Part shown: positions 537 to 39,743 of the stretch, piece by piece
Numbering within the stretch: the stretch's first letter is position 1
Layout of the letters: the number at the start of each line of letters is the position of its first letter
Notes under the pieces: generated by a model
Databases searched by the model: none
What the model saw: the letters and a program-made list of their open reading frames with translations, nothing else
Told to the model about the DNA's origin: nothing
Program-made: the position numbers and the translations under genes
IMG/VR virus record: IMGVR_UViG_3300042923_000542
Span: 1-39,743 of that record
DNA from: a virus
Length of the DNA stretch: 39,743 bases
Reading direction: 5' to 3' (one strand)

Positions 537-1937
537 CTATTGATAGAAGTACATATCTATCTTTTCCGGTGTTATAAATATGCTCTGTATAAATTCTTGT
601 AATAGTGCCTTTTTTATCTGAACATCTTCTGTACTATTTAATTTATCCCATGTATTCATTATTTTTATTTTTATTTGTTTTGCATTTTCTTTTTGCCGTT
701 CTTCTTCATTAATATTTTCGTCCGATTGGATTTCGCTTAATTCCTTTTCTAATCTTGTTTTTATTTCTGCATATTCTTCTAAAGAAAATACATTTGAAAG
801 ATAGGCCCTTTTTGATCGCTCTAATTCATTTTGCAGCTTTAGTTTTTTATTTTTTACAAATGTTGTTATTTCGTTAATCTTTGTGTCTACTACATTAATT
901 GCAATATCTGTTGAAACAAGTATTTTACGAAGTTCATCAAGTATATGTTGTTCAAGTTTATCATGTTGGTATAGTTTTGAATGCGTACAATCGTCTTTTT
1001 TATACCTAGCTCTGCGACAAGTATACATATAATATGTTTTACTGCCTTTGCCACCAAATGACACCATTTTGCTGATTCTCATTGGGTTATTACATATACC
1101 GCACTTCGCCAATCCCAAAAGAAGATAATTATTATAGTGTTTATTCCTATAAGCTGTTTTTTGTTTTTTACTACCTATTATATTTTGAGTCTTAATAAAA
1201 TAATCTTCCGGTATTATTGCATCAAAAGAATTTTTATATATTTCTCCGGCCCATTTTAATGATCCAGTATAAGTTTCGTTATTTAATATGTAATTTATCT
1301 GGCTACTGTTCCAACTTCCTCCAGGCTTCATTGTAGGGATATCATTATTATTAAGGTAATTTGCAATATGTACGGTTCCAGTTCCAGAGTTATACATCTC
1401 ATATATATTTTTTACTATATTAGCCTGATCCTCTACAATTTCAACTTTGCCACTTATATTTTTATATCCATAAGGCATCATATTAACTGCAAATCCTTGT
1501 CTAATTTTTTCACCTTGCCCTTTTTTAACTTCCGCTGATAGATTTCTAACATAATACTCCGCTAAAAGTTCTAAAATACCTTCTTGGAAAAATCCAATAG
1601 GACTGTTTTCTATAGGCTCAGTCATAGATACAACATTAACACCGGATTTTCTAAGTTGCGTCTTTAATCTTTGACTAAGTTCAACTTTACGTGCAAATCT
1701 ATCAAATTTATGCACTAATATAATGTCAAACAGTTTCTTCGGAGCATCTTGAATCATCTTTTGAAACTCCGGTCTTGCTTCTATTTGTCCTGTTATTCCT
1801 TCATCTGAATACACTTTATATATTCCGATATCATTTTTATCACAATATTCAGTTAATTGATTAATTTGGGCAGAAATAGAAAATCCTTGAGTTGCTTGTT
1901 CTTCTGTACTAACTCTTACATATAAAGCAGCTTTCAT
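537..1937 (-). CDS. int: Large serine integrase (site-specific recombinase)
   Basis: This 466-aa protein integrates and excises the phage through a covalent serine-DNA intermediate. The N-terminal resolvase domain (about 1-140) has the nucleophile Ser10 in YVRVSTEEQA and the conserved FDRFAR segment near 78-83. A recombinase domain follows (about 150-260), then a zinc ribbon with Cys279, Cys282, Cys307 and Cys317, and a long coiled coil near 345-430. The length is typical of the short end of the family. The ATG at 1937 has a GTGAGGT ribosome-binding site. The probable attP lies just past its 3' end. No dedicated directionality factor can be named; the two excisionase-type HTH genes are candidates. 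Confidence 0.95.
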   Translation of the reverse strand: MKAALYVRVSTEEQATQGFSISAQINQLTEYCDKNDIGIYKVYSDEGITGQIEARPEFQKMIQDAPKKLFDIILVHKFDRFARKVELSQRLKTQLRKSGVNVVSMTEPIENSPIGFFQEGILELLAEYYVRNLSAEVKKGQGEKIRQGFAVNMMPYGYKNISGKVEIVEDQANIVKNIYEMYNSGTGTVHIANYLNNNDIPTMKPGGSWNSSQINYILNNETYTGSLKWAGEIYKNSFDAIIPEDYFIKTQNIIGSKKQKTAYRNKHYNNYLLLGLAKCGICNNPMRISKMVSFGGKGSKTYYMYTCRRARYKKDDCTHSKLYQHDKLEQHILDELRKILVSTDIAINVVDTKINEITTFVKNKKLKLQNELERSKRAYLSNVFSLEEYAEIKTRLEKELSEIQSDENINEEERQKENAKQIKIKIMNTWDKLNSTEDVQIKKALLQEFIQSIFITPEKIDMYFYQ

Positions 1938-2078
1938 TAGTATACCTCACGAAATATTTTTTTGGAGTTTGTCGACATAAATCGAACATATTCTTTTGTG
2001 GAAACTATTTACAAAAATTCTTGTATCACTTTAAAATTAGTTAACATAACTAAACATATTGGTATTAACGATATTAAC

Positions 2079-2113
2079 AAAAGTCCTTGAAAAGTCGAAT
2101 TTCCAAGGCTTTT
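2079..2113 (-). terminator. Terminator between cI and int
   Basis: AAAAG-T-CCTTG pairs with CAAGG-CTTTT. Read leftward, it would end the cI transcript before int and is followed by CTTTTG. It may also work rightward. Confidence 0.5.
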
Positions 2114-2164
2114 ATTGTTTGAAGTACCTTATTTTATTTGTTACAATAATCGAACAAGTATGTT

Positions 2165-2195
2165 ATAACCGTTATCTTTAATAGATGGCGGTTAT
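2165..2195 (+). promoter_or_regulatory. 13-bp hairpin with TAACC/GGTTA arms
   Basis: ATAACCG pairs with CGGTTAT, then two T-G wobbles, then ATCT pairs with AGAT around a TTAAT loop. The wobbles only pair in a rightward RNA. The arms also carry the TAACC/GGTTA half-sites of the repressor operators, so it could be an RNA hairpin, a distal operator, or both. Confidence 0.4.
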
Positions 2196-2219
2196 TGTAT
2201 TAATAAGGGAGTGTAAACC

Positions 2220-2240
2220 ATGATTTACAAAATTTTGTAA
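2220..2240 (+). CDS. Possible six-codon leader peptide (MIYKIL)
   Basis: An ATG with a strong AAGGGAG ribosome-binding site opens a frame of only six codons. The end of the frame coincides with a 16-bp perfect palindrome. It could be a leader peptide, or chance. Confidence 0.25.
   Translation: MIYKIL
2225..2240. promoter_or_regulatory. 16-bp perfect palindrome, possible operator
   Basis: TTACAAAATTTTGTAA is self-complementary over all 16 bases and ends 11 nt before the -35 box of the LexA-controlled promoter. It is unlike the TAACC/GGTTA operators, so another regulator may bind here. Confidence 0.4.
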
Positions 2241-2251
2241 TAAAAAAATAC

Positions 2252-2279
2252 TTGTTCCTGCCATAATTTGTGGTATAAT
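2252..2279 (+). promoter_or_regulatory. Promoter of the SOS-controlled micropeptide
   Basis: TTGTTC (2252-2257), a 16-bp spacer and a perfect TATAAT (2274-2279) place the start of transcription near 2286, just upstream of the LexA box. Confidence 0.7.
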
Positions 2280-2290
2280 TTAATACACCT

Positions 2291-2308
2291 ATAGAACATG
2301 TGTTCTAT
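2291..2308. promoter_or_regulatory. LexA (DinR) box
   Basis: GAACATGTGTTC at 2294-2305 matches the Gram-positive LexA core GAAC-RNRY-GTTC at every position. It lies inside a longer perfect inverted repeat ATAGAACA-TG-TGTTCTAT. It sits about 8-19 nt past the predicted transcription start, where bound LexA would block transcription. Confidence 0.75.
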
Positions 2309-2332
2309 ATTTACAAATGAGGGGGCATATAA

Positions 2333-2416
2333 ATGTATATAAATTTAGGAGTAACATACATAGAAAAAATTAGCATTAACGGTATAGAATATATAAATCT
2401 TGACTTTATTTTATAG
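2333..2416 (+). CDS. SOS-controlled 27-aa micropeptide (copy 1)
   Basis: The ATG at 2333 follows a strong GAGGGGG ribosome-binding site by 7 nt, behind a good promoter and a consensus LexA box. The product starts MYINLGVTYIEKI and contains INGIEYINLD. It is 16/27 identical to the peptide at 6493, so selection is acting on the protein. Its last 11 nt overlap the 3' end of the convergent repressor gene, and I see no terminator in between, so its mRNA would run antisense through cI. I infer an antirepressor or induction peptide. No known family is recognised. Confidence 0.7.
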   Translation: MYINLGVTYIEKISINGIEYINLDFIL

Positions 2417-2753
2417 CTTCTATAGCTTTAATGATTTTATTTAGATCATCAGGTGAGATTCCTTTTTCTTTCGCATCTTTTATTACTGTGTAGTATTCTA
2501 CCCCTAAATTTTTTAATTGTTCTGGGATATCATCAATCTTAATAGTTTTAGGATTATCAGTATTACCTAGTAAGTAATCTAGCGTACAATCAAATATTTC
2601 AGAGAATCTTCTCAATATATTTAGATCGGGTTCTCGAATTCCTCTTTCATATTGAGAAATATTATTTTTAGATTTGTTAACTATATTCCCTAATTCTTCT
2701 TGAGTAAACCCTTTTTTAATTCGTTCAGATTTCAATCTTTCACCAAATTTCAT
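2406..2753 (-). CDS. CI-like phage repressor (XRE family), 115 aa
   Basis: This DNA-binding protein should hold the lytic promoter shut in the lysogen. The N-terminal 60 residues form a classic XRE helix-turn-helix (GFTQEELGNIVNKSKNNISQ...), and the C-terminal 45 residues are a short helical tail. There is no S24 LexA-type peptidase domain, so RecA-driven self-cleavage is not possible, and no ImmA-like protease gene is seen nearby. I chose the ATG at 2753 because GGAGGGG lies 6 nt upstream; longer in-frame starts would run into the operators. The -10 region is good but no -35 box is clear, as expected for a weak maintenance promoter. Confidence 0.88.
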   Translation of the reverse strand: MKFGERLKSERIKKGFTQEELGNIVNKSKNNISQYERGIREPDLNILRRFSEIFDCTLDYLLGNTDNPKTIKIDDIPEQLKNLGVEYYTVIKDAKEKGISPDDLNKIIKAIEAIK

Positions 2754-2779
2754 AATAAACCCCTCCAACATTATAATTA

Positions 2780-2824
2780 TAACCACATTACGGTTACTTT
2801 TAAAGCAAATAACCAAAACGGTTA
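2780..2824. promoter_or_regulatory. Operators O1 and O2, repressor promoter side
   Basis: TAACC-N7-GGTTA (2780-2796) and TAACC-AAAAC-GGTTA (2810-2824) lie just upstream of cI. O1 covers one of two overlapping TATAAT matches (minus strand, 2776-2781), so CI or Cro bound here would control cI itself. Confidence 0.7.
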
Positions 2825-2854
2825 AAAATTTTAAAAATATTTTTATTTTATGTA

Positions 2855-2883
2855 TTGACAATAACCGAATTGGTTATTATAAT
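2855..2883 (+). promoter_or_regulatory. Rightward lytic promoter with operator O3
   Basis: TTGACA (2855-2860), 17 bp and TATAAT (2878-2883) form a perfect sigma-A promoter. The spacer is exactly filled by the perfect palindrome ATAACCGAATTGGTTAT (2861-2877), so repressor binding would exclude polymerase. It drives cro and the early genes. Confidence 0.92.
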
Positions 2884-2893
2884 AATAGTATAG

Positions 2894-2908
2894 TAATCAA
2901 AACGGTTA
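2894..2908. promoter_or_regulatory. Operator O4
   Basis: TAATC-AAAAC-GGTTA is a one-mismatch copy of the TAACC-N5-GGTTA operator, placed at the transcription start of the rightward promoter and just before the cro ribosome-binding site. Confidence 0.7.
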
Positions 2909-2924
2909 CGGAAGGAGGTAACAA

Positions 2925-3167
2925 ATGTCTAAAATCTACAACATTGAACGGATAAAAACATTGCGAGAGAACAATAATTTTACTCAAAATGAAATATCCG
3001 ATCTACTAGGGATAACTGCACAAGCATACGGTAGAAAAGAAAACGGTAAACGTAATTTTTCAATATATGAAGCACAGGTACTTGCAGATTTTTATAGTGT
3101 ACAAATGGAAGAACTTTTTTTTAACCCTGTCAGTAACCAAAATGTTCACAAAATAAAAGCTTCATAA
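2925..3167 (+). CDS. Cro-like XRE regulator, 80 aa
   Basis: This is the first gene of the rightward early transcript, diverging from cI across shared operators, as cro does in lambdoid phages. An XRE helix-turn-helix occupies residues 7-62 (NFTQNEISDLLGITAQAYGR). The ATG at 2925 follows GGAGGT by 6 nt. The position implies that it turns down cI transcription and balances lytic growth. Confidence 0.85.
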   Translation: MSKIYNIERIKTLRENNNFTQNEISDLLGITAQAYGRKENGKRNFSIYEAQVLADFYSVQMEELFFNPVSNQNVHKIKAS

Positions 3168-3220
3168 ATATTATATGAAAAAATAATCAAAAAGTTTACT
3201 GGAAAAGAAAGGTGAGTGAT

Positions 3221-3394
3221 TTGAAAGAACTAAGGATAAAAGCAGGATATTCAATAAAAGATGTAGCTTTAATAACCGGAGTATCAGAAAGCACTATTTA
3301 TAAAATCGAAGAAGGAAAACAAAAGCCAAGACCGTTATTAGCAAGTAAACTCGCAGCACTCTACAAAGTATCAATACAGGAGGTACTAAAATGA
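3221..3394 (+). CDS. Third XRE helix-turn-helix protein, about 57 aa
   Basis: This is a minimal XRE domain (YSIKDVALITGVSESTIYKI). TTG at 3221 has the better spacing from AAAGGTGA, but GTG at 3212 would add three residues. It shares 4 nt with the next gene, so it belongs to the early operon. It may be a second-level early regulator; its target is unknown. Confidence 0.75.
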   Translation: MKELRIKAGYSIKDVALITGVSESTIYKIEEGKQKPRPLLASKLAALYKVSIQEVLK

Positions 3395-3839: not shown

Positions 3840-4376
3840 ATGGATAATTTAGCATTTCAATTGATAGATAGTTTAGCACAGGAGAATGTACCTTTTATAG
3901 TAAGTGACGATTTTAAGGCCGAATGGACATTAAAAAGAATATCAGAGGACAGAGCAGAAACCCAAAGAATGATAAGTGTATGTGAAAACATGATAAATGA
4001 GTATCAAGCAAAGATTGAAAAGCTTACAGAACAACACAACAAAAGAACATCTTACCTTGAATCACAGCTACAAAGATATTTCAACGAAGTACCACATAAA
4101 GAGACTAAAACACAAGAAACTTACAGATTACCATCCGGCACATTAAAACTTAAAAAACCTGCTCCTGAGTTTGTAAGGGATGAAGAAGAATTATTAAGAT
4201 ACATGGAATCTCACAACTATCAAGATTTCATACAAGTTAAAAAGTCGGTTAAGTGGTCGGAACTGAAAAAAGACCTGGTAGCAGATGGGAAGTACGCAGT
4301 AGACAAAGAAACAGGTCAAATAGTGCAAGGAATAACAGTGCAAGAACGTGATCCCATATTTGAAATTGAGTGCTAA
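3840..4376 (+). CDS. Gam-like host-nuclease inhibitor, 178 aa
   Basis: The protein resembles the Mu Gam family (Gam_2), which binds DNA ends and shields phage DNA from host exonucleases. A long coiled coil covers about residues 30-85, followed by KLKKPAPEF and a C-terminal module with IQVKKSVKWSELKKDL. The ATG follows GAAAGGAG. It sits directly before a Rad52/DdrA-like gene, and the two would form a recombination module. No exonuclease gene is found nearby. The family call rests on overall pattern. Confidence 0.7.
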   Translation: MDNLAFQLIDSLAQENVPFIVSDDFKAEWTLKRISEDRAETQRMISVCENMINEYQAKIEKLTEQHNKRTSYLESQLQRYFNEVPHKETKTQETYRLPSGTLKLKKPAPEFVRDEEELLRYMESHNYQDFIQVKKSVKWSELKKDLVADGKYAVDKETGQIVQGITVQERDPIFEIEC

Positions 4377-6119: not shown

Positions 6120-6148
6120 TTGACATTGACTAGAATAGACTATATAAT
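6120..6148 (+). promoter_or_regulatory. Second early promoter
   Basis: A perfect TTGACA (6120-6125), 17 bp and TATAAT (6143-6148). The repeats TAGACTATA (6136 and 6156) overlap the -10 box and the start site. It drives the HTH gene at 6189. Confidence 0.88.
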
Positions 6149-6171
6149 AATAGTATAGACTATAAAGTCTA
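6136..6171. promoter_or_regulatory. Operator repeats TAGACTATA
   Basis: TAGACTATA occurs at 6136 and again 20 bp later at 6156, two helical turns apart. The second copy is half of a perfect inverted repeat TAGACT-ATAA-AGTCTA (6156-6171). This looks like an operator, perhaps for the HTH protein encoded just downstream. Confidence 0.55.
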
Positions 6172-6188: not shown

Positions 6189-6359
6189 ATGGAAAGTGAA
6201 ATACTAAATAAAGAAGAATTGGCTGAACTCTTAAAGGTAAACATCAGAACAATTGATCGGTTAAGAAAAGAAGGAATGCCAAGCTTCAAAGTAGCATCGA
6301 ACATAAGGTTCGATAAGAAATCTGTTTTAGAATGGCTTAAAGCCAGGGAAGAAAATTAA
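6189..6359 (+). CDS. Excisionase/MerR-type HTH protein, 56 aa
   Basis: The product is a compact winged HTH of the excisionase family: LNKEELAELLKVNIRTIDRL, then FDKKSVLEWL. The ATG at 6189 follows a G-rich ribosome-binding site (ATGGGGGTG). With its own perfect promoter and operator repeats it is likely autoregulated. It could be a replication-switch regulator or the directionality factor for the serine integrase. A probable antisense RNA ends inside its 3' end. Confidence 0.75.
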   Translation: MESEILNKEELAELLKVNIRTIDRLRKEGMPSFKVASNIRFDKKSVLEWLKAREEN

Positions 6360-6492: not shown

Positions 6493-6576
6493 ATGTATAT
6501 TCATTTAGAAGTATCTACTATTTTCTCAATTGTTATCAATGGAATCGAATATTTCAATCTGGATTATAAAGTGTAA
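6493..6576 (+). CDS. 27-aa micropeptide (copy 2)
   Basis: The ATG at 6493 follows AAAGGAAG by 7 nt. The product starts MYIHLEVSTIFSI and contains INGIEYFNLD. It has the same length as the LexA-controlled peptide at 2333, with 16 of 27 residues identical, above all INGIEY and NLD. No LexA box is visible here; instead its ribosome-binding site lies in a hairpin and an antisense RNA starts nearby. By position it may modulate the excisionase-type HTH protein. No family is recognised. Confidence 0.65.
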   Translation: MYIHLEVSTIFSIVINGIEYFNLDYKV

Positions 6577-37835: not shown

Positions 37836-38041
37836 AAACCCTCCACATAATAAATATTAATTCTTGAATCATACTTGCATTTTTTTACTTTCACTAAATC
37901 CCACTTTATAAGCCTAGCCAACATTACCCTACAATATTGGGGTGTAGCATGATTGTAAAACTCTTTATGTAATATCTTAAACTCTGTTTCTCCGTGTTCT
38001 TTAAGATACTTAATTATCATTTTGTCTTTTTCCGTCAACAT
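37832..38041 (-). CDS. Winged-helix DNA-binding protein, 69 aa
   Basis: I chose ATG at 38041 because GGAGGGAG lies 6 nt upstream; the upstream ATG at 38065 has no such site. The product has TEKDKMIIKYLKEHGETEFK, then YCRVMLARLIKWDLVKVKKC, a winged helix. It overlaps the 3' end of the FtsK gene by 32 nt. It may regulate the operon or direct the translocase to DNA, by analogy with small partners of FtsK-type proteins in mobile elements. Confidence 0.65.
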   Translation of the reverse strand: MLTEKDKMIIKYLKEHGETEFKILHKEFYNHATPQYCRVMLARLIKWDLVKVKKCKYDSRINIYYVEGL

Positions 38042-39218
38042 CTGTCTCCCTCCTTTGTTTATCAATAAATGTATGTTTCGTAAGTTCTATTGCTTGATCC
38101 TCCTTTATATACATTGCTTGAAATTCCTCTAATTCACCTCCATATTTTAATAATCCTCTTCCTTTAATGGTTAAATATTCGGCTGTTTCCTTTTGGTCTA
38201 AAACTATCCATGAGTTAGTTGAATCTACACATCTGAATGCAATTCGTATATCTAAATTTGCCTTAATACGACCGGGCAATAAATCGGCTGATGGTCTTTG
38301 AGTACACAGTATATGATAAATTCCGGCTCCTCGGTCTATTGCTAACCTCTTCTGAAAGTGTGTTAGTATACGGTCATTACCTTCTAATTGTGATATTTCA
38401 TCATAAAAATTGACTATGTATTTTAGTTTAGGTGTGAAATTAGCGTTATATGTTGCTATGTCCTTAACTTTTAAACTATCGAATAATTCATACCTTCGTT
38501 CTGATTCCTTGCCTAATTTAATCAGTAACTTTTCTAATTCCTTCTCGGTATAACAAAAGGAATGTACCATGTTGCTATCTTTGAATATACCTAGCTCACA
38601 GCGTTTAAAATCGGTTAAATTTAGTATCATAGTGTCAGGTGTGTTATTTCTAATAAACTGTACTATAATTCCTAGTTCTAATGTTGACTTTCCAAAGCCG
38701 GAAGTTCCTGCAATTAACATATGACGGTCAAGCAATATATTTTTTAATCCTTCCGCGGTATGGCCTAAATTGAATTCACATGGGTGTGATGTAGGTATAG
38801 GGAAGAATGGATAAAAATCTGTTAAAATGTTCGGTGTATAGTGCATGATCATTTTTTTATCGTCATATTCAAACTTTACTTTGGCATTTAATGACTGTTC
38901 AATAGATAGCTTACGTTCAGTAAAATGTGTAATATTAAGACCATCAGGCAGTGAGAATATGTAATCATATCCATATTCAGTTTTTGTTTTGGATAGCCTT
39001 TTAGGAACCTCTCCGGCTGCGTTCATTAACTTCATTGACTTAAAAAGTTTTTCAAATTGGTCCTCTGTGCTAAAGATTGAATATGTAGTTGCTAAAACTC
39101 CGGCTCCTATTAATCCGCTGTATGTGTACCACGGTATATTGATTCCTGCAAAGCCATCCATAACCTTTGCCATTGTACCAAGTGAAGCAAGAAGCATTCC
39201 ATCGGCCTTCATTTCCAT
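38010..39218 (-). CDS. FtsK/SpoIIIE-type DNA translocase, 402 aa
   Basis: A membrane-like segment near the N terminus (about 22-50) is followed by a cytosolic FtsK core. Walker A is AGTSGFGKST (170-179), Walker B is NFYDEISQL near 275, and HILCTQRPSADLLPGRIKAN lies near 313-332. The family pumps double-stranded DNA. The protein is shorter than cell-division FtsK (no long linker or gamma domain) and closer in size to plasmid or ICE translocases. No relaxase is found. It may act in stable maintenance or DNA movement of a plasmid-like prophage. Confidence 0.88.
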   Translation of the reverse strand: MEMKADGMLLASLGTMAKVMDGFAGINIPWYTYSGLIGAGVLATTYSIFSTEDQFEKLFKSMKLMNAAGEVPKRLSKTKTEYGYDYIFSLPDGLNITHFTERKLSIEQSLNAKVKFEYDDKKMIMHYTPNILTDFYPFFPIPTSHPCEFNLGHTAEGLKNILLDRHMLIAGTSGFGKSTLELGIIVQFIRNNTPDTMILNLTDFKRCELGIFKDSNMVHSFCYTEKELEKLLIKLGKESERRYELFDSLKVKDIATYNANFTPKLKYIVNFYDEISQLEGNDRILTHFQKRLAIDRGAGIYHILCTQRPSADLLPGRIKANLDIRIAFRCVDSTNSWIVLDQKETAEYLTIKGRGLLKYGGELEEFQAMYIKEDQAIELTKHTFIDKQRRETDVDGKRQNDN

Positions 39219-39449: not shown

Positions 39450-39743
39450 GTGGTTATTTTCAATATTAAGCTTCATCTGTTTTGGGGTATTGCTTTAATT
39501 ATATTGGGCAAGGTAACATCAATACTATTAATGGCAGGAATATTATTAGGAAGTATTATTTTAGATTGTGACACGAAAAAGAGCTATATAGGAAAGTTGT
39601 TTCCTTTATGGTTGCTACTTGGAAAAAATGCTCATAGAAAATACACTCATTCAATTATCGGATTATTGTTATTTTCATGTTTAGGGATTTATATAAATTT
39701 GATTTTTGGATTAGGAATTGGAATTGGTGCATTGATACATTTA
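39450..39743 (+). CDS. DUF457/YdjM-like membrane protein, 5' part
   Basis: This is the start of the gene that continues at 1-244 across the circular join (136 aa in all). GTG at 39450 has only a weak GAGGG near it; an alternative ATG at 39531 lacks a ribosome-binding site. The first hydrophobic segment is followed by LGSIILDCDTKKSYIGKLF, the DUF457 start motif, and LLLGKNAHRKYTHS. Confidence 0.75.
   Translation, partial: MVIFNIKLHLFWGIALIILGKVTSILLMAGILLGSIILDCDTKKSYIGKLFPLWLLLGKNAHRKYTHSIIGLLLFSCLGIYINLIFGLGIGIGALIHL
39617..39743. repeat. Terminal overlap, right copy
   Basis: Identical to bases 1-127. The last base of the unit genome is therefore 39616. Confidence 0.9.

Follow-up and report, generated by a model that had tools for sequence, protein, structure and literature searches.

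A 27-residue peptide gene with a LexA box beside a protease-less phage repressor, a candidate member of a new antirepressor family

The switch region and its short repressor

The window, that is the whole stretch of 39,743 nucleotides analyzed here, begins and ends with the same 127 bases (1-127 = 39617-39743), and because of these identical ends we regard it as a circular assembly and the phage genome as probably complete. The phage encodes a P22-type portal protein, a serine integrase and a cI/cro-type switch, and between integrase and cI lie a LexA box and a very small open reading frame. The features of this region are the following.

537-1937, minus strand: serine integrase (Pfam Resolvase, Recombinase and Zn_ribbon), adjoining peptide copy 1
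2252-2279, plus strand: peptide promoter, with a poor -35 element TTGTTC (2252-2257), a 16-nt spacer and an extended -10 element TGGTATAAT (2271-2279)
2294-2305, plus strand: LexA (SOS) box GAACATGTGTTC, a perfect match to GAAC-N4-GTTC just 3' of the predicted transcription start
2319-2325, plus strand: ribosome-binding site GAGGGGG, read from the sequence, 7 nt before the ATG
2333-2416, plus strand: 27-aa SOS peptide, copy 1, MYINLGVTYIEKISINGIEYINLDFIL, the proposed antirepressor (ATG at 2333, stop codon 2414-2416)
2406-2753, minus strand: repressor cI, 115 aa, the proposed target, with an N-terminal HTH_3 as its sole Pfam domain and a predicted C-terminal helix pair (PHROG 8)
2780-2908, no strand: putative operator region between cI and cro, with imperfect palindromes TAACC-N5-GGTTA, read from the sequence
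2855-2883, plus strand: lytic promoter PR, TTGACA-17-TATAAT, matching the consensus at 12/12 positions and overlapping an operator
2925-3167, plus strand: Cro-like HTH protein (Pfam HTH_3), the first gene of the rightward operon

The GAAC-N4-GTTC consensus is that of B. subtilis and the clostridia (PMC4234289). The peptide ORF converges on cI and overlaps its 3' end by 11 nt, and no terminator-like site was found on the plus strand between the peptide promoter and the lytic genes (1900-3300). The original prediction had described a perfect Gram-positive LexA box at a promoter, a 27-codon ORF with a strong ribosome-binding site and an ORF end inside the convergent repressor gene without an intervening terminator, and all of this was confirmed. 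The palindromes at 2810-2824, 2862-2876 and 2894-2908, together with a looser one at 2780-2797, are putative operators for cI and Cro. Two further genes of the phage may be mentioned in passing: an early-operon gene for a Mu Gam-like end-protection protein (3840-4376; PHROG 2205, E 2e-36), and an FtsK/SpoIIIE-like ATPase at the genome end (38010-39218, minus strand) that is unusual for a phage of this size.

It had also been claimed that the 115-aa repressor carries no protease domain and is not accompanied by an ImmA-like gene, and this holds across the entire record. The S24 family (PF00717) gave no match anywhere in the window record or in the viral relative G796 described below, with control genomes positive, and the ImmA/IrrE family (PF06114, M78) gave none in the window, in G796 or in G006, the closest phage by portal protein, while matching in the related phage G011 and in nine control genomes. 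In the AlphaFold2 (AF2) model of the repressor the C-terminal helices span residues 85-96 and 101-114 (pLDDT 55-67). The closest structure to the HTH model is PDB entry 9iaq (Z 13.1, rmsd 1.4 over 69 residues), and the best PDB sequence match of the repressor profile is the HTH of ImmR (7t8i). The C-terminal profile matches SinI weakly (E 0.08-0.1), and the Pfam SinI model gave no match; PDB matches of the same profile to PPR and IcmE repeats were discarded as repeat artefacts.

A peptide family and its constant neighbor

The original prediction had called for a search of phage databases. Profile and pattern searches in phage and bacterial sequence yielded a homologous family of seven members at six loci, of which the window phage has two, a further virus one, and bacterial genomes four. 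One locus, L043 in genome G196, came from a scan that screened for LexA boxes; here the box is followed by MIIYIHLGIDSVERYIIGNITYCNLDYKKSDY, which converges on the gene of a repressor that shares 32% identity with the window cI, and the order of serine integrase, LexA box with peptide, cI, cro and early genes is that of the window. Searching with the L043 peptide found MEYYLHLGVDYIYFIVVDGITYYNLDYKE beside the 43%-identical repressor of G127 (L131), and a three-sequence profile run genome-wide found MLHTIRLGINNIPFISIKGILFINLDYPWSDDIFSLFII in G042 (L135) and MIKIIHLEIKSIPFIIRNGTIYINIDYPWSEEEKLLFVEF in G259 (L136), each of which converges on a same-type repressor gene and overlaps it. A first degenerate DNA pattern had no match in viral contigs; a degenerate pattern applied to IMG/VR found L183 on the 42-kb record G796, where a tyrosine integrase, a LexA box GAACATAAGTTC, a ribosome-binding site, the peptide MQIKFVSLGVSTIDHVRINGITYVNLDFIPKK, a terminator-like hairpin, the convergent repressor and cro follow one another. 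Scanning the window itself with the family profile revealed a paralogue, copy 2, with the sequence MYIHLEVSTIFSIVINGIEYFNLDYKV.

Copy 1 scores an E-value of 1.5e-14 against the family profile and 2.6e-11 when left out of it, and the leave-one-out values for the seven members, obtained among about 27,000 frames, lie between 2e-8 and 3e-12; profile matches L137-L158, L205 and L206, with E > 0.002, were judged to be chance. The family is rare, occurring in 4 of 391 Clostridia-class genomes with no new member in a phylum sample of 398. No model in Pfam, PHROGs or NCBIfam matches the peptide, tblastn in phages and plasmids gave no credible match and no recognizable copy in annotated ones, a DNA-level search with window positions 2000-2900 gave none in phages, and the integrase and portal relatives of the window phage lack the peptide module. 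As judged from these searches, the peptide appears to represent a new family of 27-40 residues, absent from all three collections.

The codons of the family point to translation. In a 21-codon core of the seven members, the fraction of pairs that differ is 0.40 at codon position 1, 0.35 at position 2 and 0.60 at position 3. Of 441 codon pairs, 215 specify the same residue, and in 123 of these the codons are not identical. The expected number of same-residue pairs is 138, and none of 2000 permutations of codon positions reached the observed one. By this codon comparison, purifying selection is acting on the protein sequence of the peptide. The AF2 prediction for the L183 peptide with the two window copies gave a confident three-stranded sheet with a mean pLDDT of 92. 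Kinship of the peptide with ImmA was considered and rejected: the top PDB entries in Foldseek include IrrE-type PprI and selecase, but with E-values of at least 3, all VIA-align Z-scores stay below 2, and hhalign comparisons with five ImmA proteins yielded 0.2%. Mimicry of the C-terminal LGVE segment of the repressor was likewise dismissed (hhalign probability 0.7%).

What does not change from locus to locus is the repressor. One of the same type adjoins the peptide at all six loci, convergent at five and divergent at L131; these partners have 111-126 aa, an N-terminal HTH and the C-terminal consensus IPEELKDIGIEYIAVAKEIKDKGIPPExVKKIL, for which a helix pair is predicted. L135, L136 and L183 were found without using the repressor, and yet each is convergent with one, at a distance of up to about 35 nt or with overlapping 3' ends. 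The peptide adjoins an integrase at several loci as well, and small SOS-induced peptides with quite different roles, such as the YneA- and TisB-type proteins, do exist. We therefore considered that the peptide is real and SOS-linked but serves as a modulator of cI or Cro, a co-repressor, a helper of integration or excision, an SOS toxin or an inhibitor of division. The integrase, however, is of the serine type in the window and G196 and of the tyrosine type in L183 and G042, and none was present within the 3 kb read at L131, so that a role with the integrase is unlikely when the repressor type stays constant; furthermore AF2 predicts a beta sheet and no transmembrane helix. Taken together, we consider any such other role unlikely.

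The second copy in the window lies in a different setting, with the following features.

6120-6148, plus strand: second promoter TTGACA-17-TATAAT, with a palindrome TAGACT-ATAA-AGTCTA at 6156-6171
6189-6359, plus strand: 56-aa HTH_17 protein, excisionase-like or a regulator (Pfam HTH_17, E 2.8e-7; PHROGs), 5' of copy 2
6493-6576, plus strand: peptide copy 2, 27 aa (profile E 3.1e-11 with copy 2 left out of the profile)

Copy 2 is 59% identical to copy 1, has no LexA box and is located 3.7 kb from it, on the lytic-gene strand within an early-region transcription unit. The palindrome differs from the cI operators, and the region 6120-6171 is a 71% repeat of the PR region (family D2). As it stands behind the HTH_17 gene and a different palindrome, copy 2 is probably under separate control. 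It would probably reinforce the switch or tie it to another cue, and it may commit the phage to lytic growth.

LexA boxes and Agr-linked relatives

The presence of a LexA box in the window is not significant in itself, since GAACNNNNGTTC with at most one mismatch occurs 8 times in the window against 9.1 expected, and what matters is its position. In 278 kb of fetched clostridial loci there are 9 perfect boxes, about one per 31 kb, and at this frequency a perfect box would fall in the 60 nt before a given start with a probability of about 0.002. In a sample of 89 repressor loci from genomes of the class Clostridia, the 0-200 bp past the repressor stop hold four perfect boxes, about 11 times as many per base as elsewhere. 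Each of these four precedes a small ORF (34, 41, 46 and 53 aa) that has a good ribosome-binding site. Within the peptide family, a perfect LexA box at the promoter of the small gene is found by sequence in the window, L183 and L043, with an extended TGnTATAAT 11-14 nt 5' of the box in the latter two as well. The scan that found L043 sought LexA boxes, and its box is therefore not independent evidence; L183, found by peptide sequence only and bearing a perfect box at the same place, is the clean independent case (P about 0.002). The lack of enrichment across the window might have spoken for a chance ORF behind a chance box, but seven homologues, selection at the codon level and constant synteny stand against this. 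On these comparisons chance is excluded for the ORF, and the explanation as a whole deserves hardly any weight.

No LexA box precedes the peptide at L131, L135 or L136. In G042 and G259 a complete set of agrBDCA genes lies directly beside it instead, comprising AgrB, an AgrD-like precursor with the core ACWLFG[FY], a GHKL kinase and a LytTR regulator, as assigned by Pfam for G042 and by sequence likeness for G259. These agrBDCA-like sets (L216 4559-7340 in G042, L219 6632-9401 in G259) reside on integrase-bearing elements. Such a quorum-sensing regulator gene beside small ORF and repressor is a feature of G042 and G259, and not of copy 1 in the window. The arrangement makes both elements candidates for an Agr-controlled prophage induction system, in which Agr signalling would probably drive the peptide. 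As two relatives have agrBDCA in the place of the LexA box, the peptide has the appearance of an effector that stays the same while its input is exchanged.

Proposed induction and known systems

From the conserved family, the constant repressor and the LexA boxes at three loci we propose, with a probability of roughly three in four, that these beta-structured peptides of 27-40 aa are antirepressors of the adjacent protease-less repressor. LexA binding, Agr regulation, contact between peptide and repressor, and induction itself we infer throughout. In the lysogen, host LexA at 2294-2305 would silence the peptide promoter, and the repressor would hold PR at the TAACC-N5-GGTTA operators. Upon DNA damage, RecA-driven self-cleavage of LexA would free the promoter, and the translated peptide would bind the repressor, most likely at or near the predicted C-terminal helix pair, possibly akin to that of SinI/SinR, that may form its dimerization element. 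The repressor would then leave its operators and the cro-side lytic operon would fire.

The original prediction had allowed for the peptide as antirepressor, for its transcript as antisense to cI, or for both, and it is the peptide half that the family favors. If the transcript acted instead, SOS transcription from 2286 through cI would silence or destroy the cI mRNA, and the promoter may in addition supply cro and the lytic genes by read-through, as a bypass. The geometry in the window fits, with no plus-strand terminator predicted within 1900-3300, but it is the protein sequence of the peptide that is under codon-level selection, and terminator-like hairpins are found at or just past the peptide stop in L183, L131, L135 and L136, thus at four of the five other loci, with a weaker one at the fifth, L043. 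Copy 2, moreover, lies 3.7 kb away on the lytic-gene strand, and at L131 the divergent arrangement means that the peptide transcript is not antisense to the repressor. In view of the hairpins and of L131, antisense action cannot be the conserved function, although read-through may occur in the window, where no terminator was seen. Overall we judge an effect of the transcript rather than the peptide to be quite improbable.

The antirepressor reading has a close precedent in the Salmonella prophages, where GftA, GfoA and GfhA of the Gifsy phages and FsoA of Fels-1 are small antirepressors under direct LexA control (PMC3121763). There, too, a small LexA-controlled antirepressor inactivates a small, uncleaved repressor and couples induction to the SOS response, as the window peptide would do for a 115-aa repressor that has an HTH only and no S24 self-cleavage domain. 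The Gifsy systems differ in being proteobacterial and in the site of the gene, which is found outside the immunity region and shares its operon with a dinI homologue, whereas the peptide gene of the window has 27 codons, a Gram-positive LexA box, a convergent and overlapping repressor gene and a product without match in Pfam, PHROGs or NCBIfam. The Agr-linked peptides of G042 and G259 find a good parallel in the TF-smORF modules of Vibrio and Aeromonas phages, where the small protein that inactivates cI is expressed under a regulator dedicated to it, sometimes a receptor for quorum sensing (PMC10432266). Those smORFs reportedly resemble each other little and belong to different hosts and another protein family, while the present peptides form one homologous family with both LexA and Agr neighbors. 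The same parallel extends to Qtip of phage VP882, a protein of 79 aa.

By its entry title, 9iaq concerns an arbitrium-controlled small antirepressor of Bacillus phages; it shares with the window the HTH and the logic of a small antirepressor in Gram-positive phages, and by the same title its input is the arbitrium peptide and not LexA. SinR of B. subtilis has about 111 aa with an HTH and a C-terminal helix pair, and SinI is its small protein antagonist. Size and predicted architecture of the window repressor are similar, and its C-terminal profile matches SinI weakly. SinI, however, is a helical relative of the SinR C-terminus, whereas the window peptide is predicted to be beta-structured and its family profile bears no similarity to the repressor C-termini (hhalign probability 0.7%), so that it is not an antagonist derived from a paralogous repressor domain. 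ImmA is the usual partner of short ImmR-like repressors, in ICEBs1 as well as in phages; the window repressor resembles ImmR in its HTH, but the phage is without an M78 protease. In G011 (IMGVR_UViG_3300042934_001332) the LexA box precedes an ImmA-like gene instead: a perfect box GAACATATGTTC lies directly before this gene and by the integrase (L029 1597-2158), and transcription of ImmA may thus come under SOS control there.

The claim that an SOS antirepressor this small would be new needs to be qualified. The induction logic is already known, given the LexA-controlled small antirepressors of the Gifsy phages; the apparently new elements are the peptide family, the small size of its members and the exchange of inputs. 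The family is Gram-positive, its peptides have 27-40 residues and occur in Clostridia-type phages and prophages, twice in the window phage, and its members lie beside both SOS and Agr genes. On balance we lean slightly towards the wider reading in which the peptide serves SinR-like phage repressors as a portable antirepressor, its sensor swapped between LexA/SOS and a complete phage-borne Agr system, and its two copies forming an OR gate for induction in the window phage. If so, no smaller antirepressor family is known to us, and it would be the first for which homology reveals a change between SOS and quorum-sensing inputs. It would offer one explanation of how a phage that lacks ImmA, and whose short repressor carries no protease, can respond to DNA damage, by means of a peptide small enough for gene callers to miss. 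Homologous effectors beside SOS or Agr sensors make modular induction inputs directly testable in reporter assays, and the peptide would be a minimal one for studying repressor inactivation without proteolysis.

Other small ORFs with LexA boxes were seen in the course of this work. LexA boxes in L032 were set aside, being located in a PTS/host region. In G006, a LexA-like box GAACATATGTTT precedes a 69-aa ORF just 3' of a repressor with a similar C-terminus (L028 4734-4990); the ORF does not match the peptide-family profile. At L047 (1997-2200), one of the four boxed repressor loci above, an unrelated 41-aa ORF behind a LexA box is convergent with a 174-aa repressor and overlaps its 3' end, which is exactly the layout of the window with another peptide. 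Finally, L059 (1997-2176) and L092 (2036-2235) carry LexA-boxed small ORFs of 46 and 53 aa in tandem orientation (MDLNGIFAIKINGEVVYKNNFL... and MIWNYILKIKLNNKVIYIKDI..., respectively), possibly a second small-ORF family downstream of other protease-less repressors.
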